Assembly: GCF_037975245.1 (NCBI RefSeq)
Contig: NC_092561.1
Location: forward strand, 6,188,001-6,252,000
DNA from: Apostichopus japonicus
Lineage: Eukaryota; Echinodermata; Holothuroidea; Aspidochirotida; Stichopodidae
DNA: 64,000 nt
Direction: 5' to 3'
Shown: positions 29,401 to 59,300 of the stretch, in pieces
Layout: each line of letters opens with the position of its first letter
How positions within the stretch are numbered: the first letter of the stretch is position 1
Notes under the pieces: generated by a model
What the model was told of the DNA's origin: nothing
The model's input: only the letters and a program-made list of their open reading frames with translations
Databases searched by the model: none
Position numbers and translations under genes: made by a program

Positions 29401-31431
29401 ATGCACCATATTGACGTCTGGGAAAGGGATGCCCAGACTAACCCACCCCACACAACAGATTCGGCTTCAACCAACTCACAACAGCACCCCCTCCTTAAGA
29501 AATTCTGAATCTACCCTATGCATATGGAAGTAAAAGTCGAAGGGTCCTCTGTTAAACTTCCATGCAAGATATGCACACAAACTGGAAAGGGGTGGGTGGA
29601 GAGAGGGCCAACCATATGGTGCCTTGTAGCTCCAGTGAAAGTTTATCTGGCTTTGCATACGGATAACATTTCACATGCACTTCTATTATATATACCAAAG
29701 AAATATGTGATCCGGGTAAAAAAATTGTCGAGAACTTCGTTCATTAGTCGTTGTAAAACCATATCTTCGAGAGGCTGGCTGACAGGGGTATAAGGTGGAC
29801 GCCCCTTTTTAATTTTTAATCTCCCACAATACTTATGGCCCATATGTATAGTCTAAATATGCATCAGAAAGCACCATTTGACATCAACCGAACCCATGGC
29901 CCCCACCCCCTCCCTTTATGAAATGCTGGAACGGCGTTCGTATCATTATCGAATTTAATTACATACTGGTCGTTGGCAGAAGGCAAAATAATTGGGAGGG
30001 AGTGGAGGAAGGGACGGGACGGGACGGGACGGGAGGAAGAGGGAAGTGACGGGAGAGATGGGGAGAGGGGGAGGGGAAGAAGGGTTCAATGGGTAAGGAG
30101 GGGTAATTGTATCATGTTCATGTTTCTGACATGACATTAGCGATGCTGTCGTCAACAACAAACAAAACAAGGTTTACAAGCTTCCTGTTTATTGCTTAAT
30201 TTCGAAAAGAGAATTACTCCAGCCCTGTCCCATGTTTACTTTCACCTCCGCACCCCATCCATCCATCCATCCATCCATCCACCCCCCCCCCCCCACGCTC
30301 CACTATTCTCCAATAATCATGAGGGTAAATAATGATACAGCCGTTTCCATTTCAGTATATACAACGTTGAAACAAAGCAAAAACCTTGTCCAAAACTCAC
30401 CAGATCTAACATGGCGTAAAACTGCAAGCTTATGGACAGGTCCACGACGTCGTCTGAATCGAAAACGGGGTAGTCTCCAGCTGTGTAATTTTCATGGCCG
30501 AGTATGTACTCCCTGACTCGTGCTTCTGCATGTTTGGAATATCTTCCACTTACGGCGTAATCTAAAAAAATATTTACAGAACAAGTAAATGAACTGACTG
30601 GCCTTCAAAAAGATTGGTGGGGGGGTGCCACAGGGGTACAAGGGCCCGGCTACAAGTTGTATATACATCAGGGCCTCGATATCGGAAGGGCGGCCATCTA
30701 CCACCCAAACTAATTTCAGAGTTTTTTTTGCGAGGCAGCATACGTTATACACTGGCGTTACGTTACGTTATACACGTCATACGTTATACGTTACGATATA
30801 CTTTACGTTATACACTGGCGCCATGTCGTTTCGTTCAAACATTAGCGTGACTCCAGCCACCTCCAGTCTCAAACCGGGGACCCTTTACACACTGTTACGT
30901 TTTTTTAGACAAAAAAATACATAATAATAACGACGACGACGATGATGGTGACGATGACGACGACGACGTTGCCGGTGACGGTGACGGTGACGATGACGAC
31001 GACGACGACGATGACGGTGACGGTGACGATGACGGTGACGATGATGATGATGATGATAAACCTGACTGAATTCATCATTCCATTCGAATTATGAGATGTA
31101 GGCATAAACCCTCACTAGTAACGTTTGTCGTAGCAAGATATATTCGATACACGGAGAAAAACTAATTATGTAATTTACTTGTGTTCCGTTCTAAAAAAAA
31201 ATCTCTTTTACCCTAAAACTGGACTTATAGCACACGTTACGTAACCACGACGTTAGTTGCATATTGGCCCACATTTCTGAACTTTGTGTAAAGTATTGTA
31301 TGACTACAATAATAAACGTAAGGCAGGAATGGCCTAAATAATAATAATCATAAAAATAATAGCGAAAAGTTTCACATACCTGACAAGATGACCAGCAGAC
31401 AAAGAAACCTCGTAATTATCATGATATTCAT
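23412..31431 (-). CDS. Nicotinic acetylcholine receptor-like subunit (non-alpha), complete, seven exons, 484 aa
   Basis: A pentameric ligand-gated cation channel subunit. Minus-strand exons in order: 31431-31380, 30561-30401, 29037-28993, 28187-28078, 26909-26796, 26231-25424, 23576-23412, all GT-AG and in frame to TGA. The 45-bp exon 3 is the classic nicotinic receptor exon. Residues 1-17 form a signal peptide (MNIMIITRFLCLLVILS). Loop D Trp precedes KWTD. The Cys-loop is Cys158-Cys172 with 13 residues between (CPLYIQYFPFDTQAC). M1 spans about 245-266. M2 is about 273-295 (GERISLGVSLVLGLTVFQIL) with Glu at -1', Leu at 9' and Gln289 at 15', which predicts cation selectivity. M3 is about 307-330 and M4 is in the last exon. 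No vicinal Cys pair occurs before M1 and the loop B Trp is absent, so this is a non-alpha subunit. Its tail after M4 is long (about 20 residues). Ligand and partners are not deducible. Confidence 0.95.
24081..24446 (+). mobile_element. Non-autonomous hAT-type MITE, family A, copy 2 (366 bp)
   Basis: Nearly identical to the copy at 732-1106 in the same orientation, differing mainly in G/C run length and a few substitutions. The 8-bp duplication ATCGGTGG flanks it exactly (24073-24080 and 24447-24454). It sits in the last intron of the minus-strand receptor gene. The high similarity to copy 1 suggests recent activity. Confidence 0.9.
24568..24836 (+). mobile_element. tRNA-derived SINE, copy 1
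   Basis: The head resembles a tRNA gene: GGGAGTGTTAGCTCAGTGG (A box) and GAGTTCGAGTC (B box, 24619-24629). A body follows containing GTCCAGTTACAGAGTTGTTG, ATCATGGACGTTAAATATG, AGAGACTGACTTC, a GCGGCTTTGATAAGCCAATG block and CGCGAGTTCCTGCTTGCAG. The 3' end is a simple ATACATACA/ACACAC tail. A second copy at 35623-35869 has the same order, which defines the family. It lies in a receptor intron. Confidence 0.83.
25016..25384. mobile_element. TTAA-flanked MITE, copy 2 (about 369 bp)
   Basis: Closely similar to 9095-9465 over its whole length, including AACTTTCCGTTGCTTGCAAG and AGGTCAGATTACCGGCATTA blocks. It begins TTAAAGGCATTGAAGACTCG and ends CGAGTCTTCACACCCTTTAA. It sits in the intron before the last exon of the minus-strand receptor gene, about 40 bp past the 25424 donor. 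Confidence 0.78.
26380..26425. repeat. TA/TG dinucleotide microsatellite
   Basis: TATATATATATATTTATATATATATG followed by GTGTGTGTTG. It is in the intron between exons 5 and 6 of the minus-strand receptor gene. Confidence 0.85.
27085..27310 (+). repeat. Dispersed repeat C, copy 1 (about 225 bp)
   Basis: Shares CAATGACTATAACGCG, AGCATACAGAAACGTTGTAC, AAAGCCGAAGC, GCTAAGTTCTT and GAAACATTTCATACT, in order, with 34830-35055. The elements have the same orientation and no evident terminal repeats. One copy is inside a receptor gene and the other is between the two receptor genes. Confidence 0.7.
29370..29890. repeat. Two short diverged copies of one dispersed motif
   Basis: TAGTCTAAATATGTTTCAGA with GCACCATATTGACGTC (near 29382-29416) matches TAGTCTAAATATGCATCAGA with GCACCATTTGACATC (near 29850-29886). 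Both are intronic in the minus-strand receptor gene (between exons 2 and 3). The element boundaries are not visible. Confidence 0.45.
30013..30290. repeat. Simple-repeat cluster (GGGAC, CATC and poly-C)
   Basis: (GGGAC)n at about 30013-30035, a G/A-rich strand to about 30085, (ATCC)n at about 30256-30280, and a poly-C run. All lie in receptor intron 2. Confidence 0.85.
30925..31062. repeat. GAC/GAT/GGT trinucleotide repeat tract
   Basis: Interrupted GACGAC, GATGAT and GGTGAC hexamers run for about 135 bp in intron 1 of the minus-strand receptor. The valine/isoleucine-rich frame on the minus strand is an artefact of this repeat. Confidence 0.9.
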
Positions 31432-37685: not shown

Positions 37686-40600
37686 ATGGATGTTGTTTTT
37701 CCTGCGCTCGCCTTCATAGCAGCCATCTTCCCATTCACGGGTGAGTATATATATCTTTGCTCTTTGTTCGTAAATTTGTCTCTTTAACAGTAAATCAATA
37801 AAATGGTAATTCGTCCATAAAGTGTAAAATTCGCTTTTAGAACACATTATTCAATCTTGATAGATGAAAATTGATGTAACCGTATAGATTGTTGCCATCA
37901 TGACATTAAAAGCAGTTGTTGTAAATTTGAACAGTATTAGTCAAATTAAAAGATGACGTATAATTTCCAGGGTAGTGAAGCTGATCTAAGGGTGTGGTTC
38001 GAGGAGGGGGGGGGGGTCCCTCCGCATTATATTATCACGTTAACTTGTGCCTTATTATATGTCTAATTTAAAAAAAAAATAGTTGTGAGAGAGGAGGAGG
38101 TGGAGGGGGTGTGGTTGGGAATGGTGTGGAATTGCGTTTGCCTTTCTTCGTTCAAACGATGTGTGCCCGACGGGGAGGGGATGGGGTTTAGGATGAGGAC
38201 CGGGGTTTGGAGTATCACTCTATCAAATATACTTATTGGCTATTTCACTTTCTTGACTCAATCATTGTCTCCAAATGTTACATTTGACTATGATGACCGG
38301 ACAGGCGCGTAGCCAGGAATTTGCCAAGGGAGGGGCGAAACTGTAGATTCGGCATTGCAAACTATCTAAGCGTAGCGCCACCATAATTGGCGCGAAGCGT
38401 ACAAGAACATTTTGGCTGAATATGCCTCCCAGATCGTTGGAATGATGGCACTTCCCAGGCCTTGTAAGTTGCATCTAAGCATTTTCTCTTTGAAAATGCT
38501 AGCGATATCATAAAAACATATGCTTAAGGGGGGCGGCTTCCCCCTTCGCGCCCCCCTCCCCTTGGCTACGCGCCTATGACCGGAGTTCCGAGTGCTAGAT
38601 AGTTCAAATCATTTTCGGTAGCAAAATGTTCCTTCTATGCAGATCTATACAATAAAGTAACCAGAACATTATGACAGTATAGTATTATGGGAGGGGTGCT
38701 GAAAGAGTGACGGGCAGGGGGAGGGGTGGGGAAGATGACGGGAACCTAGTCCACATCAGATATATAGGGAAGACGCTTTTAGAAAGAACACCGTGTCTGT
38801 TTACTCCAACAGGCTGGAGTCAAATAATCATCAACGCGGTCTTGTTTGTTTGATTTATTCGCACTCAGATTGTTCAAGATACAAAAACAAAAAAAAATTA
38901 CAAAGATATAATAGACAAATTGGACGGAATTGAAAAGTACAAAAAGAGTAACAGGAGCTAAACCCATTAGGCTGACAGAATGTCGGCCCATTTCCAATGG
39001 GGCCCTATATCCATCCTCACCATGGCTACCCCAGTCTGAGATATTCTCTGTTCTGTTGTTGTTCTTTATATATTGACCTGTTTGATTTTTTACCATAGAG
39101 AGTGGTTCATACAAGCCGAATGCTGAACGAATGATTCGAGACCATATCTTACATGACCGGAATTATTCTTCACGTGAGAGACCAGTTCTCAATGCTAGTG
39201 ATACGCTAGAGGTGACCTTGTGTGTATTCCTAAATGCTATGCTGCACTTGGTAGGTTTATTTGCCAGTTATATCTCGTTAGATAGGCGTATGAGTAGCCT
39301 TACTTTCATTACGAACTAGATATGTTACGGAGGGCCAAACTTTCCATAAATTTCGAAAACTATAAAATAAGATGGCATTTGTTGTACCGGCATTTCGATA
39401 TCAGCTTGTTACAGTATGCTATTACTATGACGTGTTACATATATGAGCGTGTCATTCTTGGATATTGGCATGGTGAAGACACACACGAAAAACACTAACC
39501 GACAATGCAGGCTAAATCCCGCCTTAGAGTTTTGAACAATAAGGCGCCTCTATCGTCTGCAAACATTACATGCAGACTTACACGCCATTTGTTTCATAAA
39601 TACCGAAACACGTTTCAATATGTCAAAGGTGATTTAAAGGACTGGTTCAGTTGCCATACATGTTTATGTAATATGAAAGGGAACAATAAAAGAATCACAC
39701 TGGTGAAAAAACTGTTCAAATATCTTTTTCGGTTAAAGAGATATTCAAGTGTAAAGTTTTATCAGATTGTGTAGAAACTGCTGAAATCTGACTAGCTGTG
39801 ATGTCACATCCTCACATTCCTGAAAAGTCTTTGTTTTTTTCTAAATATTTTGTGAGATTTCATGACTTTCAACCAAAAGATATGTCAGGAGATCTCATAT
39901 TTGTCAAAGGAAGTATTTGAGATCAAACATCTTATATCTGAAGAATTATTGATTATATGATTTTCAAATGTGTTAAAAAATGTAAATACTTTTTAAAGAA
40001 ATATTCACACATGTTAAAGAAGTGAGGATGTGATATCACACCCTCACATTTAGTCTTTCTACACCAGTCATTTTTTTCTTCAAAGTGTCATATCTCCTTA
40101 ACAGAGAATGCTATCATGGTAGTTTCTTCACTGTTCTTTTTGTCTTTTTGTGTTCTTTCATACAAAATAGACATGTCAAACACCTGAACCAATTCTTTAA
40201 GAGTGTCCGAATTAGAATCAACATAGCCTACTGCAAGATGACTAATTTGCGCTTTCCCTAATTTTGATCTGTACATGTCCTTAGCCAAACTTAGGCCGGG
40301 TTGATTGAAAAAAATATGAAAATAGCGTTCCAAGACACGCCTTTTAACACTTAAATATCTCCTAAATGGAACTTTATTTTTCTTAGCTGTTTTGGGGGAG
40401 TTTGTTCTTTTTACAATGATCTCTGTCTTTTAGTCCAAACATGACGGATATATGGGTTTGTGTTCCTTATCTTAAATCGCGATATACCGTTAAGTGCATA
40501 TTTCCCATTTACGCTGTCTATCTGGGCATTATGAATGGAGGTTCTCGCGCAGAGAAATATTTGATTAGTAATCAAATCTATACAGTGACCAATTTTTGTT

Positions 40601-43600
40601 CTTTTTAATGCTGTCATCTTTTGCCACTTTTTCGTTTTGCAGAATCAAAAGGACCAGACCATCAAAACAGCTACGTGGGTAGCTTTTGTAAGTACTAGGA
40701 ATGTTAAAATTGAGAGGGCGCTGGTAACTTATTGTCACTCCTCAGATAAAATCTACTCTGAGATTCAACACACTTGTTTCATGAAAGATATGTATATAAA
40801 AAAAACTAAGGGGAAAAGGCAATAACTTGTTACGTTGGAACGATATTTGTTGTCAAATAGAAACCTTAATTGGAATCATTATGAAGGACAAAATTTGCAG
40901 GTTCTCTTCTTGCATGCATAGTTACCAGTGGAGTCAATTGTGTAGCTATGGTGATATGGAACGATTTGTACAGTTTTGCGAAAACTCGAACCTCAAAAGT
41001 ACCCGTTTTAATTTATTAATTTAATTTAGATAAAAACATGAAGCTCCTTTCTTGAGAAATTTGCAGCAAAGAAGTACATGCACTTTTCTTGAAGAATTAC
41101 AAAAAAAAAGTGTAAACATTAAGTTTCGTATTGTTGAAATAAATTTATAAAATTAAACTACTGGAATTTGTGGTACAGAGTGCATTTTCGTCAGGAAGTT
41201 TGGAGGTGATTTTGTGAAATGATGGTCCCACAAAACAATGTCACACTGCCCCTTTAAGATTGTGCATACCCCTCCCCCCCCCCCTCTTCCTGTATAGTAC
41301 ACATATCTCAAACTTGCTAGACGTGACACTTGACTGGCGTCAATGAATGGATACGAGGGACTGAATACAATGCTTTGCTTCCATCCAAACCAACAGAAAT
41401 GGACCGATCCTCGACTTACTTGGGACCCGAAAGATTTCGATGGTCAGGACTTAATTGTTCTTCACCATGATGAAGTTTGGTTACCTGTCGTTCACCTAGG
41501 AAATGGGTAAGAAGAAATAAGTTTAGAAAAGAAATTTAAGCGGTCACATTTTTGTTTTAAACAGAAAGATGAAGGTTTTGTTTTTGATCTGCATATACGG
41601 TCTTATGACTTTCTTCTCGGATACCGATTCCATTACTCCCACCCCACCCCACCCCCACCTCCCTTCCACCGTTTTCAACCTCTCACAAAAATTCAAAAGT
41701 AGTTATTTGCACAACCTTGCGTTTAGACATGGGGAGGATGCTCATTAGACCCCCCCCCCTCCCTACCTATATTGATAGTTTGCTTCAACAACCCTAAGGA
41801 CACACCCTCTCCTTTGAGAAATCCTGATCCACCCTGACATTTTAATATTTCTGTAATTCATTCCTTATCTTATGGTGTATCGTTTACGTTTTTGTTTCTT
41901 TTTGTCCTCAAAGGTTAGAAACAGTAACTGTTATTAATCCCAGTCATGGTCGGGTCGTACTTGCATCAACAGGTGAAATCTATCTCGGATCTGCTTTTAT
42001 CCAATCGTCGTACTGTCCAATAAGGTAAGACTTTCAGGGCATGCGCACTTTTTGATCTTGATTAAGTAGATTATTAAACAGTGGCAAACTCCCCCCCCCC
42101 CCTCCCCAAAAAATAAATAAATTAAAAAATTGCTGCTGACGGATTTCTTTAGTCCATGAAAGTAAAGAGGAGTAGGGGACGGGGGGGGGGAGGGGTTGGA
42201 AAACGGAAGAGGGAGACACAGAAGGTTGCAGGGATAAGATGAAAAAATAATTGTTTAGTAAAAACCAATAAACAATTAATCATGTATATTTTGCACAAGC
42301 TTGATAAGTTCCTTCAACAGTACAAAATATCGTTAACTTTTTGGGGGCGAGGTAGAGAAGGGTGGGGTGGGTGGGAGTTCGTCACCCGAAGAATTAAATT
42401 TTTTTAAATGCTACGGTGAGTCATTTCGACTATTTTATGGCTAAAGATTGACATTATTGGTGTCGCCAAAATATTTTGGAGTCTCTGAAAAAAAATCGTT
42501 GAAAAGCAAATGGGGAAATCTTGACTATAATTAATTCAAAAAGTAAAATAAAATATAACACCATTTTGAAATTAAACACTTATAATCATACAACAAAGTC
42601 TCAAATAGGCAGGTGGTAAACACCCCCCCCCCCCCGTAGACCCCTTTGTCAGATCATGACATCCTTTACTGGAGGGTCTCCAAGATGATGGAGGTGAAAA
42701 TTTGGGTCACCATGAAAGAGTTCGAAGACACCATTTTCACTTTGTGAATAAAACAACTAATAAATCCCCTATTAAGCGATGCTAAATGATCGTACCGCAT
42801 ACATCTCGTAGCTATATGGAAGGGGGTATGGAGAGGGTGGGATGGGATGGGCGGAGCTTGTCCAGTAAAGTTTAAACATTTAATTTCTTGGTCAGAATGG
42901 TGCCAATGTTACAACCCATCGCAATATGAAGTTTATATATAGTCTTCTGGACAGAACCCTCTCCACCCCTCTCCCGCTCTCTCCACCTCTCTTTATTTCT
43001 GTTTCTTTCATTCTTTCTTTCCCTATTTCCTTTTAATAGGATCAAGTACTTTCCTTTCGATAGCCAAGTTTGTCAGTTGAAGTTCAACTCGGGGAATATT
43101 CCAGCTGAAAAGCTGCTTCTTAAAGCCGGTGTGGCCATTATGAGTCCGGCTCTCTCTTCTTCAGAATGGCAAGTATTGGCGATGAACGGAACAGAACGGA
43201 TCTTCTACGAAGATGACGTCATAAGCAACAGACCCATGTTGCCATATTCTCAAGTCCGTTTCTGTCTATACTTGAAACGCCATCCAAGGCACTATATCCT
43301 ACTGTTAATTATTCCGTCCACCATTTTGAATTTGATGACCATAATGACATTCCTCTCTCCAGCCGATAGCGGAGAGAGAATGTCTTTAAGTGTCTCCATG
43401 ATTTTAGGATTAACCGTCTTTCACTTACTGGTAGCCGACATGCTCCCTGTAACAGAGGGACGCGACAACCCCATCCTGAGTAATTATTTAACTGGCAATT
43501 TTGTACTCTCTGTTCTGGCCATACCATGTTCACTCTATAGTGTTAATGTTATGTGCAGTTATGATAATAATGTTAAGACCAATCAAATCCTAGCTGGTAT

Positions 43601-44241
43601 CATGTACTTCATGCGGTTCTTTGGCATCTTGAAGAAACCTAAGAAAATGTCTGCAAAAGTGACCGTCGACGAATTTTTAAGACAGGATTCGTTACCATGT
43701 GATGACGTCATCAACGGACGACCAGACGAGCGAAAGGATATAACTGAAAACCGACAAGTGCATCGTGGGCTGTCGGATGGACAACTGCATATGCATAAAA
43801 AGGTACACATAGGTTGATTTCATAATTAGTAATATCTCATTGAATATAGTTTATAAACTCTCCAGACCGGCACAACTTGGCTCCTTTCTTCAGATAAAAT
43901 ATATTAACGCTAGATATAAGCGGGGTTTTTATTTTAGTCTGACGTATGATTTCAGTATGCGCATGTGTAGAAGAATCATTACATGGCTCAACATTTTGAA
44001 ATGTTTTACCTCTCACCAGTACTTTTATTCTTATCTCTTCATTTATTTTTCTTCCTCTCATTTTTCTTCTTCTTCTGTAAATTTTCTTCGACAGAATATA
44101 GATGAAGCTCGTTTGGTAGCCAACGCGTTGGATCGAATATTTTTCGTGATATTCCTTATGGCTATTATTGGTATGTTTGTCCTCATGGTGATCAAGTTCC
44201 GGTTTGCTGCAAATAGTCATATCACGGGAGGGTGCTATTGA
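37686..44241 (+). CDS. Nicotinic acetylcholine receptor-like subunit (non-alpha), complete, seven exons, 460 aa
   Basis: Exons 37686-37740, 39099-39250, 40643-40687, 41397-41506, 41914-42024, 43040-43802, 44095-44241, all GT-AG and in frame to TGA. Exon phases and order match the minus-strand gene exactly, including the 45-bp exon 3, so the two are paralogues. Residues 1-18 are a signal peptide (MDVVFPALAFIAAIFPFT). Loop D carries a Trp before KWTD. The Cys-loop is Cys155-Cys169 (CPIRIKYFPFDSQVC). M1 begins near residue 242; M2 is about 270-292 (GERMSLSVSMILGLTVFHLL) with Glu at -1', Leu280 at 9' and His286 at 15'; M3 follows; M4 is in exon 7 (ALDRIFFVIFLMAIIGMF). No vicinal Cys pair, so non-alpha. 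Exons 4-7 lie in the tandem duplication. An in-frame Met early in exon 6 is internal, not a start. Confidence 0.95.
38302..38576. mobile_element. Non-autonomous hAT-type MITE, family B, copy 3 (275 bp)
   Basis: The ends are CAGGCGCGTAGCCAGG and CCTTGGCTACGCGCCTA, inverted. The exact 8-bp duplication TGACCGGA is at 38294-38301 and 38577-38584. It lies in intron 1 of the plus-strand receptor and is the inverted relative of 22685-22939. Confidence 0.92.
39799..40039. repeat. Inverted repeat pair in receptor intron 2
   Basis: GTGATGTCACATCCTCAC (39799-39816) is mirrored by GTGAGGATGTGATATCAC (40022-40039) with one mismatch, 205 bp apart. This could be the terminal repeat of a small element, but no target duplication is clear. 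Confidence 0.5.
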
Positions 44242-47200
44242 AAACACATGAAGAGGATGATGCTATATCGACGGTATAATTAATGAGAGAAAACATAATA
44301 TAATCAAACGCACAAAGTGGTAATGAAATATAAATGTACTGTAGAAAAGGACACATGAAAAAATGTTAACACCTTTTTTTCCCTGTAGTCTGTCTACTCT
44401 TCACAATTCAATCAATGGAAGAATCTTTACCATGATGACGTCACCATTGCTGACATTACGTCATCCATTGCCAAAACCACTCATCATATATGGAAGTGTT
44501 ATATGTGGAACGCGAAAAGGGAAAACATTATACCGAGCTTTACCACGCGACGACTTCTTTACTTATGGTAGCATATATAGCCTGTGCAACTTCCCATTGA
44601 TTTACGTACTACGGGATATGTACGCACTGTGCACATGGTTAACCTGCTCTGACCTCCACAGTCATAAAATAACACCAATTAGATCAATTTGTGATTAGAA
44701 TGTTCTTCATATAATGTACTGTAAACATCCAGGTGACATTCACAAACCTAATCCCGTGGGGTATCTTAAAGCTGCTCAAGTGTCTCTTTTCGGTTCTTTG
44801 AGAATTATTACCGGTACCAACGTATACGCTACTGCATGTCCAGCTGATTTACAGTTGTCATGATATTTTGCCCTTTTCGACGTTCCAAACGGCTATGTAT
44901 TTGTATGATCATGAACGTCTAGTGTACTATTTAAGCTCTAAAAAAGCGGAAGACAAAAAAACAAAAAAAAAATAGAAGAAGGCAAAAAACACTGTAATTT
45001 TTGTTATTGTGTGCTGTAGAAATAATGTAGTGATATAAAGTAGGACGCATGTTATCACTTTATGTTTATCTCTGACAAGCAACAAATGTATACAAACTGG
45101 CAAGAAATCCAAAGAAAAATAAAAGTAAATGTTTATGAGTAAATTCTTTGTCTCTTTTCTTTATTCCTGTTTTTCCAAAGTTGCGACCTGTAGATATGTT
45201 TACAGGGCCGTAGCCAATACCTGAAAGTGTAACTTTGCCTGGCGTATGTAAGCATAGCATAGGCCTAAGTTAACCCTATATGTTACACACTAATGAATGT
45301 ATTAACTGTTAGTATAGCAGTTAGGCCCTAACTTTTAAGCCTAGTACGTATTTCTGACGGTGCCATAGAAATTGAACTATATAGGAAAAATGCTGACACA
45401 GTGTATCGCCGTGTGTTTAAGTAGTAAAGCCTTGAAAATAGTGAGGGCGCTTTGCGTTGTAAGGCAAAAAGCCAGATCATTTGTACGTCTTCATACATAC
45501 ATTGTACAATCGACTTTGAAACTGAATTCAATGTTACCCGTTTTTTTGTTGTTGAAAGAGTAGGTGCCTATAAGGCCTTGCCCTCAATTCACGGTAGTTT
45601 TTCCGAGTCAAATCCCAGCACGGTCATACAACTTCCTTCCGAATTTGCTGCTTACTTTTGCTACTCCTTCAGCTATAGTAGGCTTGATGCCCTTTGAAAA
45701 TCTGTCCTTTTCAAACTTCGGGCAAACTCTACACGAACATAGCTATTAAGCCATGAAAGGTGTGTACGCGAAAACCATAGCTAAACCTTACAAAAGTTCA
45801 ACTAATTCAAACTCAAACCCAATCACCATATCCCCCCTCCCACACCCCCACACACTTATCTACCCTACCCGACAACATTACGAGTCCCACTCATGGCTGG
45901 GTACCGCAGATGAAACAAGTTATTGAAATAAATAAAAACCAAATCAATCCATTTATTTTGCCACTATGTGTTTTATATATCATGTTTTGTTCTCACATAT
46001 CTCACAAGATATTCGAAGAATAATTAAGATCCCAGACAATATTTCTTGGACTTTTCCTGACCGCGATATTGGTCATGTTAATTTTGATGGTTCTCCATCC
46101 TAGACATCCCAGACCAGCATGTCAGCGGAGTGGATTGTGAGATATTTGAAAACAACAGGACGGTTGACTTCTCATGAGATTGTTGCCGGTTCTAAGATGG
46201 ATTTATACGGGTTCGGGTCGGAGGTAGGGAGAAGATGATACGCCGGACAGGGAGGAAGCGAAGTGCGTAAGAGGGACAGCCACCCCCTCCTCCGCCCCCC
46301 CCCCCCAAAAATATTAATAATAATAAAAGCAGAACCTCCAACCTTCCATTTTAGAACCTTTAAAGTTTATCCGGGCTGGTCTGACATTGCAAGGAAGGAG
46401 TCAAAATATGTCATCCATTTTCAAAGTTTTCAACAAACATTTTAACCAAGCAACTTACCTCAGCCATTCGATTGTGTAACTTTGTAAAGATCTTCGAATA
46501 ATTTGTACGGTTAGAGTTTTGACAACTTTTCAATCAATATTATCATTTTGAACATTTTTGGGGCCAAGGCTTATGATCGTTTGGAACTTATGCAGTTGAA
46601 CTGGACGAACCGGAATCCAATTTATGATAATTAGAAAGAGGATTTTCTTATGAATTTTTGTATATCTCCTCTGAATTACGACAGAGAGATATAAACAGTA
46701 GGAAGGCGATGGGCAGTACGATGAAAAAAAGGTACAGGCGTTCAGTAGGTAAAACTTTGCTTACTCAATTAAATCACTTAGCAATAATGAATCTCATTAA
46801 CAAAGTTTAAATATTGGTTTGTCTCTGAAAAGACATAATTTATTCTACACAGATCGAATCGTGTGAACATCTATTCAAGGGGATTAATTTCATAATGCCA
46901 TGCAAAATAGATAGCACCGTTTCTAGCTCTCTAATAAATTGATTTAATTCAAACACATTTCGACCAATCACAATAATCTTTCTCTTTTTAAAATTAATAC
47001 AGGCCATAACCAACTCTATCTCTTGGCTGCCATTACATGCGCAAAACAATAACCCTTAATCTGATTGATACCAATCACAAAATTTGGCTTTATTCTATTA
47101 AAAATGTATTTATGTCTTCCCTCATCTTTTTTATCATCTTTTATAGATAACCCACTCTTAGATAGTCACCAGTGGGTGCTCATTGCCTACTATATTACTA

Positions 47201-48310
47201 GACCACGTTTCTTCCTCACCACCAACCCCTCACCCACCTCCCCCCCCCCAATCCCCAACCATATAATTCAAAGGACTTGTATTGACAACATCAGAATGAT
47301 AAAAACCCAGTTTCTATTTAATAAAGTTGCTAATATTGTCAATACAAATGCTCTGAAGCATAACCTGAATGTACAATGTTTACTACTGGTGGTACTAGTA
47401 CTACATACACTGGCAAAATATTATTTTCCATTAATTGTGAAAACACTCTCATGATTTATATTGCTTATCCAACAAAACTGGCAGCATCCAAACCATTTTA
47501 GCTCTGAATTTCTTAACAAGATTTCCAACATGCTGCGCTACCATGGGTTTTGACATATATCATACTTGTGTCTAACTATTGAGACCACGGTACGTAGCCT
47601 ATCTCTCTTACCAAAAAATCTCAAATTTTAAACATTGAAAATTCTAACCTGAGAGCTGGCACGTACAAATGCTAACAAAATGTACCTTCAGGACTTAAGA
47701 TTGAAATGGAGTAAAAAATATAAACAAATCATATTTTCGCGATGGACAAAGATGAAAATCATTGATTATTCATTTTTTAAGATTCAATCGATAAAATACT
47801 TGCGACTGGTGTTAACTTTCGCCTAAGGCACAATTTGGCAGCAAAAAAACAAACAGAAAAGACTTCTGTATAGATCTCAAACTTACCCACTTAAAATCTT
47901 GTTACAGAAAAAAAAAAAAACAGAAATTGGGTTAAAGAAAGAGAGAAAAGAAGAGAGATGTTCATGTCAAAGAACATCACAACTTTGTTGTCAGATTTTG
48001 GTATTTTCAGTATCTTTTCCATTTGGTCTAATTTGCATTTATCGAGGTAAAGATGCAAAACGTACATTATTATTACAAAAAACACATTCACCCAAGAAAA
48101 GTTATAATTTCTTCAGTACTGTAGGGAACAAAACTAATTCTCAATTTGTTCTCTCCTTCTGCATTTTTGTCTCATTTGAAGGAGGCTGTGTTGAGAGCAT
48201 AAAGAATGCACAACAATAATGTTGAGTACAAGCACAGGTACTAAGTCATGCACTGGTGTGTACTTAAATACTTGAGTACAACAGCAGGAGTTTGTGTACA
48301 AGTAGAATGA
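41216..48310 (+). repeat. Tandem segmental duplication, copy 1 (about 7.1 kb)
   Basis: Copy 1 starts at GAAATGATGGTCCC and runs to AGTAGAATG at 48310. The same sequence recurs at 48318-55413 at an offset of 7101-7104 bp, which varies through homopolymer length. I noticed four substitutions (43424 C/A, 45317 G/A, 46671 C/T, 47413 G/A), one 3-bp indel near 47768, and poly-C/G length differences. It contains receptor exons 4-7 and 4 kb of downstream sequence. The 7 bases 48311-48317 (AAATGAT) at the junction match the start of the unit. Confidence 0.97.
44242..48217. other. Non-coding downstream flank of receptor gene, copy 1
   Basis: No recognised exon. Candidate polyadenylation hexamers include AATAAA at 45116-45121. 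Open frames here (44363-44698, 47065-47454) have no domain I know and recur unchanged in the second copy only because the whole block is duplicated. Confidence 0.5.
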
Positions 48311-48500
48311 AATGATGAAATGATGGTCCCACAAAACAATGTCACACTGCCCCTTTAAGATTGTGCATACCCCTCCCCCCCCCCCCCCTCTTCCTGTATA
48401 GTACACATATCTCAAACTTGCTAGACGTGACACTTGACTGGCGTCAATGAATGGATACGAGGGACTGAATACAATGCTTTGCTTCCATCCAAACCAACAG

Positions 48501-51344
48501 AAATGGACCGATCCTCGACTTACTTGGGACCCGAAAGATTTCGATGGTCAGGACTTAATTGTTCTTCACCATGATGAAGTTTGGTTACCTGTCGTTCACC
48601 TAGGAAATGGGTAAGAAGAAATAAGTTTAGAAAAGAAATTTAAGCGGTCACATTTTTGTTTTAAACAGAAAGATGAAGGTTTTGTTTTTGATCTGCATAT
48701 ACGGTCTTATGACTTTCTTCTCGGATACCGATTCCATTACTCCCACCCCACCCCACCCCCACCTCCCTTCCACCGTTTTCAACCTCTCACAAAAATTCAA
48801 AAGTAGTTATTTGCACAACCTTGCGTTTAGACATGGGGAGGATGCTCATTAGACCCCCCCCCCCTCCCTACCTATATTGATAGTTTGCTTCAACAACCCT
48901 AAGGACACACCCTCTCCTTTGAGAAATCCTGATCCACCCTGACATTTTAATATTTCTGTAATTCATTCCTTATCTTATGGTGTATCGTTTACGTTTTTGT
49001 TTCTTTTTGTCCTCAAAGGTTAGAAACAGTAACTGTTATTAATCCCAGTCATGGTCGGGTCGTACTTGCATCAACAGGTGAAATCTATCTCGGATCTGCT
49101 TTTATCCAATCGTCGTACTGTCCAATAAGGTAAGACTTTCAGGGCATGCGCACTTTTTGATCTTGATTAAGTAGATTATTAAACAGTGGCAAACTCCCCC
49201 CCCCCCCCTCCCCAAAAAATAAATAAATTAAAAAATTGCTGCTGACGGATTTCTTTAGTCCATGAAAGTAAAGAGGAGTAGGGGACGGGGGGGGGAGGGG
49301 TTGGAAAACGGAAGAGGGAGACACAGAAGGTTGCAGGGATAAGATGAAAAAATAATTGTTTAGTAAAAACCAATAAACAATTAATCATGTATATTTTGCA
49401 CAAGCTTGATAAGTTCCTTCAACAGTACAAAATATCGTTAACTTTTTGGGGGCGAGGTAGAGAAGGGTGGGGTGGGTGGGAGTTCGTCACCCGAAGAATT
49501 AAATTTTTTTAAATGCTACGGTGAGTCATTTCGACTATTTTATGGCTAAAGATTGACATTATTGGTGTCGCCAAAATATTTTGGAGTCTCTGAAAAAAAA
49601 TCGTTGAAAAGCAAATGGGGAAATCTTGACTATAATTAATTCAAAAAGTAAAATAAAATATAACACCATTTTGAAATTAAACACTTATAATCATACAACA
49701 AAGTCTCAAATAGGCAGGTGGTAAACACCCCCCCCCCCGTAGACCCCTTTGTCAGATCATGACATCCTTTACTGGAGGGTCTCCAAGATGATGGAGGTGA
49801 AAATTTGGGTCACCATGAAAGAGTTCGAAGACACCATTTTCACTTTGTGAATAAAACAACTAATAAATCCCCTATTAAGCGATGCTAAATGATCGTACCG
49901 CATACATCTCGTAGCTATATGGAAGGGGGTATGGAGAGGGTGGGATGGGATGGGCGGAGCTTGTCCAGTAAAGTTTAAACATTTAATTTCTTGGTCAGAA
50001 TGGTGCCAATGTTACAACCCATCGCAATATGAAGTTTATATATAGTCTTCTGGACAGAACCCTCTCCACCCCTCTCCCGCTCTCTCCACCTCTCTTTATT
50101 TCTGTTTCTTTCATTCTTTCTTTCCCTATTTCCTTTTAATAGGATCAAGTACTTTCCTTTCGATAGCCAAGTTTGTCAGTTGAAGTTCAACTCGGGGAAT
50201 ATTCCAGCTGAAAAGCTGCTTCTTAAAGCCGGTGTGGCCATTATGAGTCCGGCTCTCTCTTCTTCAGAATGGCAAGTATTGGCGATGAACGGAACAGAAC
50301 GGATCTTCTACGAAGATGACGTCATAAGCAACAGACCCATGTTGCCATATTCTCAAGTCCGTTTCTGTCTATACTTGAAACGCCATCCAAGGCACTATAT
50401 CCTACTGTTAATTATTCCGTCCACCATTTTGAATTTGATGACCATAATGACATTCCTCTCTCCAGCCGATAGCGGAGAGAGAATGTCTTTAAGTGTCTCC
50501 ATGATTTTAGGATTAACCGTCTTTCAATTACTGGTAGCCGACATGCTCCCTGTAACAGAGGGACGCGACAACCCCATCCTGAGTAATTATTTAACTGGCA
50601 ATTTTGTACTCTCTGTTCTGGCCATACCATGTTCACTCTATAGTGTTAATGTTATGTGCAGTTATGATAATAATGTTAAGACCAATCAAATCCTAGCTGG
50701 TATCATGTACTTCATGCGGTTCTTTGGCATCTTGAAGAAACCTAAGAAAATGTCTGCAAAAGTGACCGTCGACGAATTTTTAAGACAGGATTCGTTACCA
50801 TGTGATGACGTCATCAACGGACGACCAGACGAGCGAAAGGATATAACTGAAAACCGACAAGTGCATCGTGGGCTGTCGGATGGACAACTGCATATGCATA
50901 AAAAGGTACACATAGGTTGATTTCATAATTAGTAATATCTCATTGAATATAGTTTATAAACTCTCCAGACCGGCACAACTTGGCTCCTTTCTTCAGATAA
51001 AATATATTAACGCTAGATATAAGCGGGGTTTTTATTTTAGTCTGACGTATGATTTCAGTATGCGCATGTGTAGAAGAATCATTACATGGCTCAACATTTT
51101 GAAATGTTTTACCTCTCACCAGTACTTTTATTCTTATCTCTTCATTTATTTTTCTTCCTCTCATTTTTCTTCTTCTTCTGTAAATTTTCTTCGACAGAAT
51201 ATAGATGAAGCTCGTTTGGTAGCCAACGCGTTGGATCGAATATTTTTCGTGATATTCCTTATGGCTATTATTGGTATGTTTGTCCTCATGGTGATCAAGT
51301 TCCGGTTTGCTGCAAATAGTCATATCACGGGAGGGTGCTATTGA
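48501..51344 (+). CDS. Duplicated receptor exons 4'-7' (no signal-peptide exons; alternative 3' cassette or partial pseudogene)
   Basis: Exons 48501-48610, 49019-49129, 50143-50905 and 51198-51344 correspond to exons 4-7 of the plus-strand receptor and are all intact, with the same GT-AG sites and stop. The Cys-loop, M1-M4 and intracellular loop are complete. Exons 1-3 have no copy, so there is no signal peptide or start of its own. Exon 3 (40643-40687) ends in phase 0 and exon 4' starts in phase 0, so exon 3 could splice to 4' by skipping about 7.8 kb. The only coding change I found is at M2 15': CAA (Gln, 50525-50527) here, CAC (His) in copy 1. It could be expressed by alternative splicing, be silent, or reflect an assembly duplication. 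Confidence 0.8.
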
Positions 51345-54300
51345 AAACACATGAAGAGGATGATGCTATATCGACGGTATAATTAATGAGAGAAAACATA
51401 ATATAATCAAACGCACAAAGTGGTAATGAAATATAAATGTACTGTAGAAAAGGACACATGAAAAAATGTTAACACCTTTTTTTCCCTGTAGTCTGTCTAC
51501 TCTTCACAATTCAATCAATGGAAGAATCTTTACCATGATGACGTCACCATTGCTGACATTACGTCATCCATTGCCAAAACCACTCATCATATATGGAAGT
51601 GTTATATGTGGAACGCGAAAAGGGAAAACATTATACCGAGCTTTACCACGCGACGACTTCTTTACTTATGGTAGCATATATAGCCTGTGCAACTTCCCAT
51701 TGATTTACGTACTACGGGATATGTACGCACTGTGCACATGGTTAACCTGCTCTGACCTCCACAGTCATAAAATAACACCAATTAGATCAATTTGTGATTA
51801 GAATGTTCTTCATATAATGTACTGTAAACATCCAGGTGACATTCACAAACCTAATCCCGTGGGGTATCTTAAAGCTGCTCAAGTGTCTCTTTTCGGTTCT
51901 TTGAGAATTATTACCGGTACCAACGTATACGCTACTGCATGTCCAGCTGATTTACAGTTGTCATGATATTTTGCCCTTTTCGACGTTCCAAACGGCTATG
52001 TATTTGTATGATCATGAACGTCTAGTGTACTATTTAAGCTCTAAAAAAGCGGAAGACAAAAAAACAAAAAAAAAATAGAAGAAGGCAAAAAACACTGTAA
52101 TTTTTGTTATTGTGTGCTGTAGAAATAATGTAGTGATATAAAGTAGGACGCATGTTATCACTTTATGTTTATCTCTGACAAGCAACAAATGTATACAAAC
52201 TGGCAAGAAATCCAAAGAAAAATAAAAGTAAATGTTTATGAGTAAATTCTTTGTCTCTTTTCTTTATTCCTGTTTTTCCAAAGTTGCGACCTGTAGATAT
52301 GTTTACAGGGCCGTAGCCAATACCTGAAAGTGTAACTTTGCCTGGCGTATGTAAGCATAGCATAGGCCTAAGTTAACCCTATATGTTACACACTAATGAA
52401 TGTATTAACTGTTAGTATAACAGTTAGGCCCTAACTTTTAAGCCTAGTACGTATTTCTGACGGTGCCATAGAAATTGAACTATATAGGAAAAATGCTGAC
52501 ACAGTGTATCGCCGTGTGTTTAAGTAGTAAAGCCTTGAAAATAGTGAGGGCGCTTTGCGTTGTAAGGCAAAAAGCCAGATCATTTGTACGTCTTCATACA
52601 TACATTGTACAATCGACTTTGAAACTGAATTCAATGTTACCCGTTTTTTTGTTGTTGAAAGAGTAGGTGCCTATAAGGCCTTGCCCTCAATTCACGGTAG
52701 TTTTTCCGAGTCAAATCCCAGCACGGTCATACAACTTCCTTCCGAATTTGCTGCTTACTTTTGCTACTCCTTCAGCTATAGTAGGCTTGATGCCCTTTGA
52801 AAATCTGTCCTTTTCAAACTTCGGGCAAACTCTACACGAACATAGCTATTAAGCCATGAAAGGTGTGTACGCGAAAACCATAGCTAAACCTTACAAAAGT
52901 TCAACTAATTCAAACTCAAACCCAATCACCATATCCCCCCTCCCACACCCCCACACACTTATCTACCCTACCCGACAACATTACGAGTCCCACTCATGGC
53001 TGGGTACCGCAGATGAAACAAGTTATTGAAATAAATAAAAACCAAATCAATCCATTTATTTTGCCACTATGTGTTTTATATATCATGTTTTGTTCTCACA
53101 TATCTCACAAGATATTCGAAGAATAATTAAGATCCCAGACAATATTTCTTGGACTTTTCCTGACCGCGATATTGGTCATGTTAATTTTGATGGTTCTCCA
53201 TCCTAGACATCCCAGACCAGCATGTCAGCGGAGTGGATTGTGAGATATTTGAAAACAACAGGACGGTTGACTTCTCATGAGATTGTTGCCGGTTCTAAGA
53301 TGGATTTATACGGGTTCGGGTCGGAGGTAGGGAGAAGATGATACGCCGGACAGGGAGGAAGCGAAGTGCGTAAGAGGGACAGCCACCCCCTCCTCCGCCC
53401 CCCCCCCAAAAATATTAATAATAATAAAAGCAGAACCTCCAACCTTCCATTTTAGAACCTTTAAAGTTTATCCGGGCTGGTCTGACATTGCAAGGAAGGA
53501 GTCAAAATATGTCATCCATTTTCAAAGTTTTCAACAAACATTTTAACCAAGCAACTTACCTCAGCCATTCGATTGTGTAACTTTGTAAAGATCTTCGAAT
53601 AATTTGTACGGTTAGAGTTTTGACAACTTTTCAATCAATATTATCATTTTGAACATTTTTGGGGCCAAGGCTTATGATCGTTTGGAACTTATGCAGTTGA
53701 ACTGGACGAACCGGAATCCAATTTATGATAATTAGAAAGAGGATTTTCTTATGAATTTTTGTATATCTCCTTTGAATTACGACAGAGAGATATAAACAGT
53801 AGGAAGGCGATGGGCAGTACGATGAAAAAAAGGTACAGGCGTTCAGTAGGTAAAACTTTGCTTACTCAATTAAATCACTTAGCAATAATGAATCTCATTA
53901 ACAAAGTTTAAATATTGGTTTGTCTCTGAAAAGACATAATTTATTCTACACAGATCGAATCGTGTGAACATCTATTCAAGGGGATTAATTTCATAATGCC
54001 ATGCAAAATAGATAGCACCGTTTCTAGCTCTCTAATAAATTGATTTAATTCAAACACATTTCGACCAATCACAATAATCTTTCTCTTTTTAAAATTAATA
54101 CAGGCCATAACCAACTCTATCTCTTGGCTGCCATTACATGCGCAAAACAATAACCCTTAATCTGATTGATACCAATCACAAAATTTGGCTTTATTCTATT
54201 AAAAATGTATTTATGTCTTCCCTCATCTTTTTTATCATCTTTTATAGATAACCCACTCTTAGATAGTCACCAGTGGGTGCTCATTGCCTACTATATTACT

Positions 54301-55327
54301 AGACCACGTTTCTTCCTCACCACCAACCCCTCACCCACCTCCCCCCCCCCAATCCCCAACCATATAATTCAAAGGACTTGTATTGACAACATCAGAATGA
54401 TAAAAACCCAGTTTCTATTTAATAAAGTTGCTAATATTGTCAATACAAATGCTCTGAAGCATAACCTGAATGTACAATGTTTACTACTGGTGGTACTAGT
54501 ACTACATACACTGACAAAATATTATTTTCCATTAATTGTGAAAACACTCTCATGATTTATATTGCTTATCCAACAAAACTGGCAGCATCCAAACCATTTT
54601 AGCTCTGAATTTCTTAACAAGATTTCCAACATGCTGCGCTACCATGGGTTTTGACATATATCATACTTGTGTCTAACTATTGAGACCACGGTACGTAGCC
54701 TATCTCTCTTACCAAAAAATCTCAAATTTTAAACATTGAAAATTCTAACCTGAGAGCTGGCACGTACAAATGCTAACAAAATGTACCTTCAGGACTTAAG
54801 ATTGAAATGGAGTAAAAAATATAAACAAATCATATTTTCGCGATGGACAAAGATGAAAATCATTGATTATTTATCATTTTTTAAGATTCAATCGATAAAA
54901 TACTTGCGACTGGTGTTAACTTTCGCCTAAGGCACAATTTGGCAGCAAAAAAACAAACAGAAAAGACTTCTGTATAGATCTCAAACTTACCCACTTAAAA
55001 TCTTGTTACAGAAAAAAAAAAAAACAGAAATTGGGTTAAAGAAAGAGAGAAAAGAAGAGAGATGTTCATGTCAAAGAACATCACAACTTTGTTGTCAGAT
55101 TTTGGTATTTTCAGTATCTTTTCCATTTGGTCTAATTTGCATTTATCGAGGTAAAGATGCAAAACGTACATTATTATTACAAAAAACACATTCACCCAAG
55201 AAAAGTTATAATTTCTTCAGTACTGTAGGGAACAAAACTAATTCTCAATTTGTTCTCTCCTTCTGCATTTTTGTCTCATTTGAAGGAGGCTGTGTTGAGA
55301 GCATAAAGAATGCACAACAATAATGTT
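51345..55327. other. Non-coding downstream flank, copy 2
   Basis: A copy of 44242-48217 with the differences listed under the duplication. No gene recognised. Confidence 0.5.
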
Positions 55328-55820
55328 GAGTACAAGCACAGGTACTAAGTCATGCACTGGTGTGTACTTAAATACTTGAGTACAACAGCAGGAGTTTGTG
55401 TACAAGTAGAATGCCCTTTGTTATGAATGCGAGTACAAGCATGGGTACTTAATCTGGCACTAATGTGTACTAGAATACTTGAGTACAACAGCAGGAGTAC
55501 CTGTACAAGTAGAATTCCCTTTGTTATAAATACGAGTATAAAGCACAGGTACTAAATCTTACACTAGTGTGTACTAGAATACTTGGGTACAAGTACAACA
55601 GCAGGAGTACGTTTACAAGTAGAATTCCCTTTATTATGAATACAAGTATAAGCACGGGTACTTAATCTTGTACTAATGTGTACTAGAATACTGGTAGAAT
55701 TCCCTTTGTTATGAATAAGAGTACAAGCACAGGTACTTGGTCTTGCACTAGTGTGTACTAGAATACTTGAGTACAAATACGAGTACCAATCCATGAGTGC
55801 GAGTACTAGTACCGGCAACT
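55328..55820. repeat. Minisatellite of about 103-bp units, about five copies
   Basis: GAGTACAAGCACAGGTACTA-like starts recur near 55328, 55430, 55532, 55646 and 55719. Shared blocks are TGTGTACTAGAATACTTGAG, AACAGCAGGAG and AGTAGAATNCCCTTTGTTAT. The later units are shortened. The duplication breakpoint lies in the first unit. Confidence 0.88.
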
Positions 55821-56330
55821 ATGCCAGAATATGAGTACAAATATGGACTCGATGCAAGAATGAGGTGAATAACATTTAAATATAGTAAAATCTCAATTAT
55901 GGAGACAAGAAGTTGTTCAAGTATGGAATATAATCCATAGCGAATCCATATTCTCACACAACAGTGTACTTTGCTATGATAGAACAATCTTTTATGTATA
56001 CCAACCAACTGCCACAAGGTATATGAATAACTTTCTCTTTGGTAAGGGGGAGAGAAATTCATTACCTGAGGTCACAACCGAACAAAAAAACTTCATACTA
56101 GTTCAGTGCAGAAGTTTGACAATTTCATCATCGGTAAATTAAATGTCCAACCTCTCAAGACAGATTACATATTCCATCTCGATGTCTTATCGTAATAAAT
56201 AAATTTTTATACATTTCCCTTTTAATAGTTTCACCCGTTTTAAAATGCGGTATTTATGAATAAACACGGGGATACATATCGTTTTGTTTTCGTTAAATTA
56301 AAACAATCTCATACCAGCCCGTACGGCAAA
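55821..56330. other. 3' flank of the DERA gene
   Basis: AT-rich and with no recognised coding pattern. I did not find a clear minus-strand AATAAA just below the DERA stop. Confidence 0.45.
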
Positions 56331-59300
56331 TTACGCCATGGCTAATTCATTGTGGGCTGCGTACCTGCCGGTGACGTTGTGGAATATCTGTCTCTCGATG
56401 TCTCCCATGAGGGAGCTGGCGCCAATCCGGAACAGCTTCGGAGTCAGCCAATCGTTGCCGAGTTCTTCCTTCATCAGAGCTAACCACGTGCAGGAATCCT
56501 TGGCGGTCCGTATACCACCGGCCGGTTTAAACCCAATCTGAAGAGAGGAATGAAAACAGAGACTGGATCGGTACTCTCAAATTTCTAGAATATATCTGTT
56601 GTTTTTCAGTGGTCGAGATTAACATTGGTTGACGATTGGACGATACCTTTTTCGATGCTTTATCGAACCTCCATGTGTCCTACTCGGTTTTGAAAAAACT
56701 TTTACAATCTAATCTGTGTGTCATCCATCTTATGGAAGTAACATAAATCCGTACTTTGTAGAAATTGAATAGTAGTTGGAGGCCTTTCACGTAGCAGCGT
56801 GAAATATATATGTCGTTTTCAGTGGTCGAGATTAACACTGGTACCGATTGGACGATACCTCTTTTGATGCTTTATTGAACCTCCATGTGTCCTGCTCAGT
56901 TTTAATCAAACTTTTACAACCTACTCCAAAGGGGACACAACCCTACTTTTGCAGGGATTTTGTATGCAACGAAATTGATTCCTGCCTGTCCCTTCTTCTT
57001 GATAAAATAATTTCAAACTATACTCATGTCGGTGGCAATTTTCCATACCTTTATAAGCTGTCATAGGTTTGGAGTCGTTTTTTTACACCATTCTGACCGA
57101 GCGATGGACTATTTAACAATTAACGGACATCTTGGAAATTTAACTAATTTAACGAGATGGTCCCAACCATTAAGCTGCTCTAAATAGGCTCATATGCTCA
57201 ACAACAGCCAGTTCAAGGGATTGAAATTTCGTGAATTTTATGACACGTTTTAATTTTTCATAAATCTACAGAATATTTCGACTTTACGGGTAAAAAGCTT
57301 ATCATTCCTGCGAAGACTTTGGTTGACTGTAATCACTGATTATTTTCTCTATGTACATTACTTTAAAAGTTCCTATCATGGTGAAGCATAAATATCACCA
57401 GATTTTGACACAAATACTAAACAAACTTGTCGCTTCAATGCCCATGTTTTATCCTCACCTTGTTTCCGGTCCTCTTGTAGTAATCCCTAATGGCTCGAAC
57501 CATCACCAGTCCGACAGGTAGGATGGCATTGACTCCTTCCTTTCCGGTGGACGTCTTGATAAAATCAGCACCTGCAAGTTCAAAGTACAGGAAATTATTT
57601 CCGCATTACAATCTTCCCTGCCTATAGCTCATACTCCAGTCACCTGTTTTTGGCCAAAACACAGGGGAGATTGAAATATCTACCCGAGTTGGTAATGCTA
57701 GCCATACTGAACACTCCTCTGCACAAATTCATCACTAAAACACACAGCATACCATTTCAGTGGTCAAGCCAAATTTGTCTCTAAACAGGAAAGTAGTGCT
57801 GGCCATTAGAGCACTTGCGTTTACAATCATACGGTGGCTGGTCAATTAATAAGGTGCACCTCAAGGATGAATCTTAATGGCAGTACCTTGGGTAGTTTAT
57901 ACTATCATATAACAAATCATCACTGCTTGAGTGAACTTAAGGAATGTTTTTCTGTAGGCAGGTCTGACCACAAGAGGACCGCAGCAAAGCCGAGGCCGTC
58001 AATAAACACTTGGAAATGACGGCCAACAAGTCCCAAGTACTGTAGGTCTTGAGTGGATGGATGATTGTTACTGGAAAGACGAATCAGTGAAAGGGTTGTG
58101 GAAAAGGAGAAGGGGCGGGGAGAAGAATAGGGAGGGAAACAAAGGAGGTGATGATAATGATATATATGCTTATACTTGCAAATGCTGCAGTTTCACATCA
58201 CACCTAACTGCTACCCAACCCCTTTTGAAAGTGGCAAGATGAAACCCAAGTCAGTTAGACAATATTCATTTACTTAAAGCATGATGGCAACCACGTTGAT
58301 TCGATTACTCCGTGTTGGTTTATTTGAACACTGCTCACCTCCATCAAGTTAGGGAAATGGTAGCAATTTCATTTTGAACATTTCTTCTAGTATTATATGA
58401 CAATGGCATACAAAGGAGAAGCCTAAGTGAGACCGTTTCCTTCACATCTGTCTTCTGAGCACCAAATGTGAAATCTGATTCGATAAAAGCACGGTTTCAC
58501 ATACTGTATTACTCACAAACCAAGATAAAAGCATCACAGCCATGAAAATGTTTTCAGCTGTGAGACCACGTAGCATGACATCCTGATTCTATCAATGGGT
58601 TCTACTGGGATAAATTAATGTATGACTTGCAAGGAACGTTGGTAGACTACAAAACTGGAAAACGTATTTCAAAACCATTTTTGGGTATAAATTCAAATGA
58701 AACAGCCTCTAATATTATCTTTAAAAAGTTTTTAAATTCAAGGTGAGGGGAAGAAGAACTTACCAGCCATCATAGCCACCATACTAGCCTTGTAAACAGT
58801 AGTCAAGGAACCAAGCTCACCGGTGGCCAGAATGACCTTCAGGTGGGCGTTGCCACAAGCAGCCCGGAACTGTTTGACCTCATCGTAGACGCCTGTCAGA
58901 CAAAGGGATCAAAGTAACATTACTGCCCTACAGCAGCATCTAACATGGGATGGTGGGGGTGGGAGGAAAGGGGTGGTCTCCATCACTGCCCCCTTAATTG
59001 GAAAAACTATACATGGGTACATATATATGGCACCCTTTTGGTACATTTTGGCCATTGATAATAACCAGCTAGGAAAATAATTCTATGACAACAATGATGA
59101 TGACAAAGATGAATGTATTTCTATGACGATCACAAAAACGTTTTGTCTATCTAAATTAATTTTCCTTAGACGTTTGTACGACCCTTACGAATCAGCCCTT
59201 TCCTCTTGATGCATGTTGCCTTTGACATGATGCAATTGATTCCAGCAGAGACAGTTGGAACCTCTTCCTGCTCTAAAAGATATATAAATTATATAAAACA

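Follow-up and report, generated by a model that had tools for sequence, protein, structure and literature searches.

A probable, very recent head-to-tail duplication of exons 4-7 in a nicotinic-receptor-type gene of the sea cucumber Apostichopus japonicus

How does a receptor gene come to have one 5' half and two consecutive 3' halves, and is the second 3' half used? This question is raised by a nicotinic-receptor-type gene of Apostichopus japonicus located in a stretch of 64,000 nucleotides (assembly GCF_037975245.1, contig NC_092561.1, positions 6,188,001 to 6,252,000 of the forward strand). This whole stretch is called the window here, and positions refer to it unless another contig or stretch is named. 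The original prediction, made from the letters of the window, had described the locus as a switchable 3' cassette in which exon 3 could join either of two sets of exons 4-7. It had also listed a dead partial copy, a recent event, gene conversion and an assembly artefact as alternatives. Our analysis favours a recent event. The locus is probably the product of a real and very recent head-to-tail partial duplication, with a second block that is most likely silent.

A self-comparison of the window revealed a sole direct repeat longer than 1.3 kb, formed by the two copies of a 7.1-kb unit (Table 1). The unit spans from 182 bp before exon 4, which is the length of intron sequence carried along, to about 4.1 kb beyond the stop codon. 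Full alignment of the copies revealed four substitutions (43424/50527, 45317/52420, 46671/53772 and 47413/54514) and seven gaps, of which six were within poly-C/G runs and one was a TTA unit. The divergence over 7090 aligned sites is therefore 0.056%, with a Poisson range of 0.015-0.14%. In both exon 4-7 sets the reading frames are open, the splice sites are identical, and the Cys-loop and the membrane segments M1-M4 are encoded. The borders between exons 3 and 4 and between exons 3 and 4' are both in phase 0 and have identical acceptors.

Much of the original description of the locus was upheld by these data. Two consecutive intact exon 4-7 sets behind single exons 1-3 were confirmed for exons 2-7 by self-BLAST, alignment and exon searches, and phase 0 at the exon 3/4 border was confirmed for both sets from splice sites and frames. 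The exon coordinates given there (end of exon 3 at 40687, start of exon 4 at 41397, start of exon 4' at 48501) were correct. The estimate of about four substitutions in 7.1 kb agrees with the four in the alignment, to which the seven gaps are now added.

The copy number was judged from protein and exact-pattern searches, whereas a whole-unit DNA search was dominated by a short interspersed repeat and omitted the unit itself. In the protein search exon 2 had one match genome-wide. Exact patterns, searched in the readable stretches of all 35 contigs (671,581,487 bases), were found once for exon 3, twice for exon 4 and once for the junction between the copies. The exon 6 protein search resulted in 67 places. 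The two copies were detected with E <1e-167, the next match was 47% identical with E 1.3e-43, and the others were weaker. The assembly holds exons 2-3 once and exons 4-7 twice. With only one exon 2 and one exon 3, the reading as a second complete gene was discarded. More hidden copies of the unit may be present, given that a pair of copies (14.2 kb) is nearly as long as the mean read.

The junction between the copies bears on how the duplication arose. A 6-base filler lies between the copies at 48310-48315. At the join, 2 bp of microhomology (TG) precede an 8-bp filler that occurs twice in succession. Perfect tandem repeats with 8-bp units and more than two letters begin at 29 of 63,800 window positions. 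The left breakpoint is located within intron 3. The right breakpoint falls inside the first unit of a minisatellite, and copy 1 retains just this first unit in truncated form. Polymerase-theta end joining usually leaves a scar of microhomology and templated filler, and the junction looks like such a scar and not like an assembler overlap. Comparison of the breakpoint regions (40215-41714 and 54414-56413) yielded no useful homology; the best inverted match had 18 bases (E = 0.11) and the best direct match 14 bases (E = 1.3). Unequal crossing-over between repeats was therefore ruled out. In the mechanism that we propose, break repair without homology, following the polymerase-theta-type end-joining pattern, would have copied the 7.1 kb head-to-tail. 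The outcome would be a complete subunit gene (exons 1-7) and, behind it, a promoterless exon 4-7 block with its own poly(A) signal.

The near identity of the copies would also be expected from an assembly artefact, in which two haplotypes or a mis-resolved repeat were placed in tandem, and the occurrence of six of the seven gaps in homopolymers fits with this. However, the 64-kb window contains no N, and at the junction non-homologous ends meet with a filler between them. Together, the junction scar and the absence of N weigh most heavily against an error of the assembler. The published A. japonicus assembly was made with hifiasm from 64x HiFi reads with a mean length of 14.7 kb and comprises 671.60 Mb in 34 scaffolds, with 23 chromosomes (as given in PMC10344927). 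A mean read of this length suffices to link one 7.1-kb copy with unique flank and the junction. For another individual, a heterozygosity of 1.59% by k-mers and of 0.73% by mapping is given in PMC5638244. Over 7090 sites, about 113 or about 52 differences between haplotypes would be expected from these values, compared with the four seen, by a simple Poisson expectation that ignores local variation in diversity. A haplotypic false duplication was rejected in view of the divergence far below heterozygosity, the non-homologous junction and the lack of a gap. On the same grounds the assembly duplication kept as an alternative in the original prediction is disfavoured, while its statement that the divergence lies below the allelic level was borne out. 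We consider an artefact of either kind very improbable.

Low divergence might also result from an older duplication that was homogenised by gene conversion. Tandem copies readily undergo conversion, and the four differences are spread across the unit. Patchy conversion would leave diverged stretches, but the 7.1 kb contain none up to the breakpoints, and this explanation is regarded as very unlikely. An age in years would need a mutation rate; the divergence itself points to a very young duplication.

The gene in which this duplication occurred was modelled with seven exons and 460 amino acids in the joined open frame, the predicted exon 1 included. From exon 2 to exon 7, the introns have GT-AG borders. 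Exon 1 was sought by a scripted search upstream of exon 2 for an ATG, a hydrophobic stretch and a phase-1 donor, with 37686-37740 as the sole passing candidate. An earlier candidate near 38200 showed no visible donor of the phase needed by exon 2 and was absent from the output of the scripted search. The 460-residue model matched the Pfam families Neur_chan_LBD with 127.2 bits (cut-off 26) and Neur_chan_memb with 55.0 bits (cut-off 28.1), the latter match spanning positions 1-73 of the 233 profile positions only. The solved chain 4aq5_A was aligned to model residues 39-438, M4 included. Among the best 60 of 87 matches to solved structures, the best relatives were beta-2 (6.8e-45), alpha-7 (1.3e-40) and 5-HT3A (4e-32). 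Translated in the joined frame, the Cys-loop is C-PIRIKYFPFDSQV-C; it has 13 residues between its two cysteines and includes FPFD. Judged by its sequence, the encoded protein is a nicotinic acetylcholine receptor-type Cys-loop subunit. No Cys, and hence no alpha-type Cys pair, was found in the loop C region TERIFYEDDVISNRPMLPYSQ. We take a vicinal Cys pair in loop C to be the criterion for an alpha-type nicotinic subunit, and the predicted protein is therefore assigned to the non-alpha type.

Table 1. Coordinates of the gene, the duplicated unit and associated features (window positions unless a stretch is named)
Feature	Position	Strand	Basis or remark
Putative exon 1, signal peptide MDVVFPALAFIAAIFPFT, phase-1 donor GTGAGT	37686..37740	+	predicted; frame with exon 2 open
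Exon 2, N-terminal part of ligand-binding domain	39099..39250	+	splice sites, frame; one full-identity match genome-wide
Exon 3, phase 0 at end	40643..40687	+	splice sites, frame; exact 30-mer occurs once genome-wide
First copy of unit	41215..48309	+	self-BLAST, local alignment
Exon 4	41397..41506	+	splice sites, frame
Exon 5, first Cys of Cys-loop	41914..42024	+	splice sites, frame
Exon 6, remaining Cys-loop, M1-M3 and M3-M4 loop; CAC (His) at 43422-43424	43040..43802	+	splice sites, frame
Exon 7, M4 and stop	44095..44241	+	splice sites, frame
AATAAA, probable poly(A) signal of gene	45118..45123	+	first AATAAA/ATTAAA past exon 7 stop, T-rich behind; second copy at 52221
Short interspersed repeat within unit	45363..45566	+	at least 39 other genomic places, 82-89% identical (39 of 501 candidates scored)
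Duplication junction, AAATGATG twice tandemly after 2-bp microhomology (TG)	48310..48325	+	sequence once genome-wide
Second copy of unit	48316..55413	+	self-BLAST, local alignment
Exon 4'	48501..48610	+	splice sites, frame
Exon 5'	49019..49129	+	splice sites, frame
Exon 6', Gln codon CAA 50525-50527	50143..50905	+	splice sites, frame
Exon 7', M4 and stop	51198..51344	+	splice sites, frame
103-bp minisatellite, 3.5 units	55328..55692	+	right breakpoint within first unit
Truncated M1-M3 exon 6 fragments behind complete genes	L021:2189-2463; L022:1529-1803		

The sole coding difference between the two sets is the change between CAC (His) in copy 1 and CAA (Gln) in copy 2, at residue 286 of the model. 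We take this residue to be position 15' of M2 (primed numbering). By the printed residue numbers it is aligned with Met 253 of human alpha7, and there the exchange M253L alters the action of allosteric modulators, according to PMC5767682. The counterpart of residue 286 was surveyed in 61 of the 65 non-self exon 6 matches, leaving out C8:19160748, C1:17911685, C13:6442250 and C5:17910711. Two stretches (L037 and L050) had no alignment over the site, and the rows L012/L021 and L014/L022 are repeated places. Over 59 places we counted Gln 42 times, Leu 13 times, Met twice, and Thr and His once each. This single His is found in a remote member at C8:25183982 (31% identical), and His at 15' was accordingly no longer regarded as unique to copy 1 within the family. 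Gln was present in all 28 best-scoring non-self matches, all of them on contig C1. Therefore, the His of copy 1 is derived and the Gln of copy 2 ancestral. At the divergence of the unit, 0.64 substitutions are expected in exons 4-7 (1131 bp), against one coding difference observed, and the duplication is too young to judge selection.

Partial 3' copies were also seen elsewhere in the same subfamily. A cluster at C1:17847000-18157000 (17.85-18.16 Mb) contains 25 of the 28 nearest exon 6 matches, in both orientations and 38-58% identical to exon 6. Behind each of the genes at 17.98 Mb and 18.04 Mb lies a fragment of 275 bp that covers M1-M3, with 91% and 93% identity to the exon 6 of the gene concerned. 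These fragments lack the Cys-loop part and have in-frame stops about 34 codons upstream, and no M4 match is listed behind them within the fetched stretch. The two stretches (L021 and L022) are 96.4% alike over at least 8.9 kb, an internal duplication of the cluster, so both fragments may trace to one event. The cluster is thus comparable to the present locus in that partial 3' copies lie downstream of complete genes, at two places; in contrast to the 7.1-kb unit, its copies are only 275 bp long, 91-93% identical to the parent and confined to M1-M3. Partial 3' copies have thus formed before in this subfamily, and in the observed case nothing but truncated pieces is left of them. By analogy, this suggests that lying unused and decaying is the usual fate of such copies.

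These observations lead to the question of whether the second block is used. Transcription would start before exon 1, exon 3 would be spliced to the nearer exon 4, and the transcript would end at the first poly(A) signal at 45118, ahead of the junction. The second block would then normally lie outside the mature mRNA and hence be free to decay. It is best read as a block without promoter, signal peptide and early exons. Because a likely poly(A) signal sits between the two exon sets, copy 2 is probably unused.

With a switchable 3' cassette, read-through past the first poly(A) signal would instead join exon 3 (or exon 5) to the second block, and the resulting subunits would differ only at M2 15'. 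The phases are compatible with such a switch, as exon 3 ends and exons 4 and 4' start in phase 0. The unit includes the 182 bp of intron ahead of exon 4, all splice sites are identical, and each block has a poly(A) signal of its own. Moreover, the sole amino acid difference falls on the counterpart of the alpha7 residue at which Met-to-Leu alters allosteric modulation (PMC5767682), and mutually exclusive duplicated exons are described for the insect nicotinic acetylcholine receptor (nAChR) subunit alpha6 (PMC1919356). However, an identical acceptor is available at the closer exon 4, and a poly(A) signal stands in between. Moreover, hardly any divergence separates the two blocks, in contrast to long-kept cassettes such as exon 8 of insect alpha6. 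Nothing indicates use of exon 4', the poly(A) signal precedes the junction and the intactness of copy 2 is uninformative, which leaves the cassette of the original prediction unsupported; we regard it as very unlikely. Similarly doubtful is the conclusion that would follow from it, that one step made a gene with two alternative pore modules in use, an ancestral Gln-15' and a derived His-15'. If true, the locus would be a nascent 3' isoform switch seen at its birth, perhaps still segregating in the population.

The second block might also be expressed by itself, driven by a promoter that arose within the 4.1-kb spacer. The product would be a subunit without the first ligand-binding part and possibly a dominant negative. 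A human precedent is CHRFAM7A, in which the duplicated exons 5-10 of CHRNA7 are expressed with new 5' exons (PMC8998457), and an in-frame ATG is located 9 codons upstream of exon 4'. But copy 1 has the same ATG and the same spacer, and the product would be without a signal peptide. In the list of open reading frames of the spacer no exon was recognised, a family-library search of the spacer not having been made. We consider such a truncated gene highly improbable.

A silent second block that is left to decay remains the preferred reading, and some observations weigh against it. Copy 2 is without any disabling change. This intactness carries no weight, because only 0.64 substitutions are expected in 1131 bp. 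The derived residue sits in the promoter-linked copy 1 and the old one in the loose copy 2, which, although it concerns a single substitution, runs slightly counter to a simple decay of the loose copy. Finally, the matched part of the M1-M3 fragments on C1 is free of stops, which makes these fragments better examples of partial copying than of decay.

Further members of the family were noticed during the analysis. A second nicotinic-type gene is located on the minus strand of the window (25334-30604), head-to-head with the gene studied here and 46% identical to it in exon 6; its exons are recognisable near 30.5, 28.1 and 25.3-26.3 kb. At L023:3592-4009 an exon-2-like stretch abuts an M1-M3 stretch and the middle of the ligand-binding domain is missing, apparently a rearranged copy. 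Apart from receptor genes, self-BLAST revealed three long minisatellite arrays in the window (11135-11695, period about 33 bp, 12797-13628 and 16558-17888) with open frames across the repeats. A 179-residue open frame at 4410-4946 on the plus strand presumably resembles the C-terminal part of a reverse-transcriptase protein of the long interspersed nuclear element (LINE) type. The COX1 of the mitochondrial contig C35 can be read without stops in the echinoderm mitochondrial code and was aligned over its full 447 residues. Compared with the mammalian COX1 of this alignment, AAA corresponds to Asn in 9 of 9 places, TGA to Trp in 11 of 11, AGA to Ser in 4 of 5 and ATA mainly to Ile (12 of 22; Met 2), in agreement with the echinoderm code. 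Outside contig C35, five COX1 matches were found at C29:14745-31219, which could represent mis-assembly of a mitochondrial contig or an insertion into the nuclear genome.

As a rule, a partial duplication of a receptor gene comes into view only long after the event; for this one it is still possible to list the breakpoints, the filler and what changed afterwards. The His/Gln difference at M2 15' is a built-in marker that separates the two blocks in any RNA data set, and the case could serve to learn what becomes of a second 3' half shortly after its origin, whether it is put to use, is ignored or does harm. The meaning for the organism is modest, as the case adds another copy-number event to a subfamily that has no fewer than 28 further membrane-exon matches on the same chromosome.

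Among the papers listed on nicotinic expansions in sea cucumbers and other echinoderms, none on the present gene was recognised by title or start of abstract, and the terms 'nicotinic' and 'acetylcholine' are absent from the main text of two earlier A. japonicus genome papers. The locus was compared with two known systems. Exons 3 and 8 of insect nAChR alpha6 are likewise duplicated, phase-compatible exons of a nicotinic subunit gene. In contrast, they are single internal exons that are mutually exclusive, diverged, about 300 million years old and shown in cDNA, as described in PMC1919356, whereas the sea cucumber duplication comprises an entire terminal block, its stop and poly(A) signal included, with four substitutions between the copies. 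By analogy, the closest known case is CHRFAM7A. There too, the 3' exons of a nicotinic subunit gene were duplicated without the 5' exons, the copy includes the membrane domains, and the event is recent. CHRFAM7A duplicates exons 5-10 of CHRNA7 and is about 3.5 million years old; its product reduced alpha7 currents when co-expressed, but not in Neuro2a cells (all as reported in PMC8998457). Unlike the block described here, the human copy lies 1.6 Mb away, is inverted, has acquired new 5' exons (ULK4 and GOLGA8B-like sequence) and is expressed. The sea cucumber copy is a direct tandem in which no new 5' exons were seen. In summary, the present case is a very young instance of the known process of partial tandem gene duplication.

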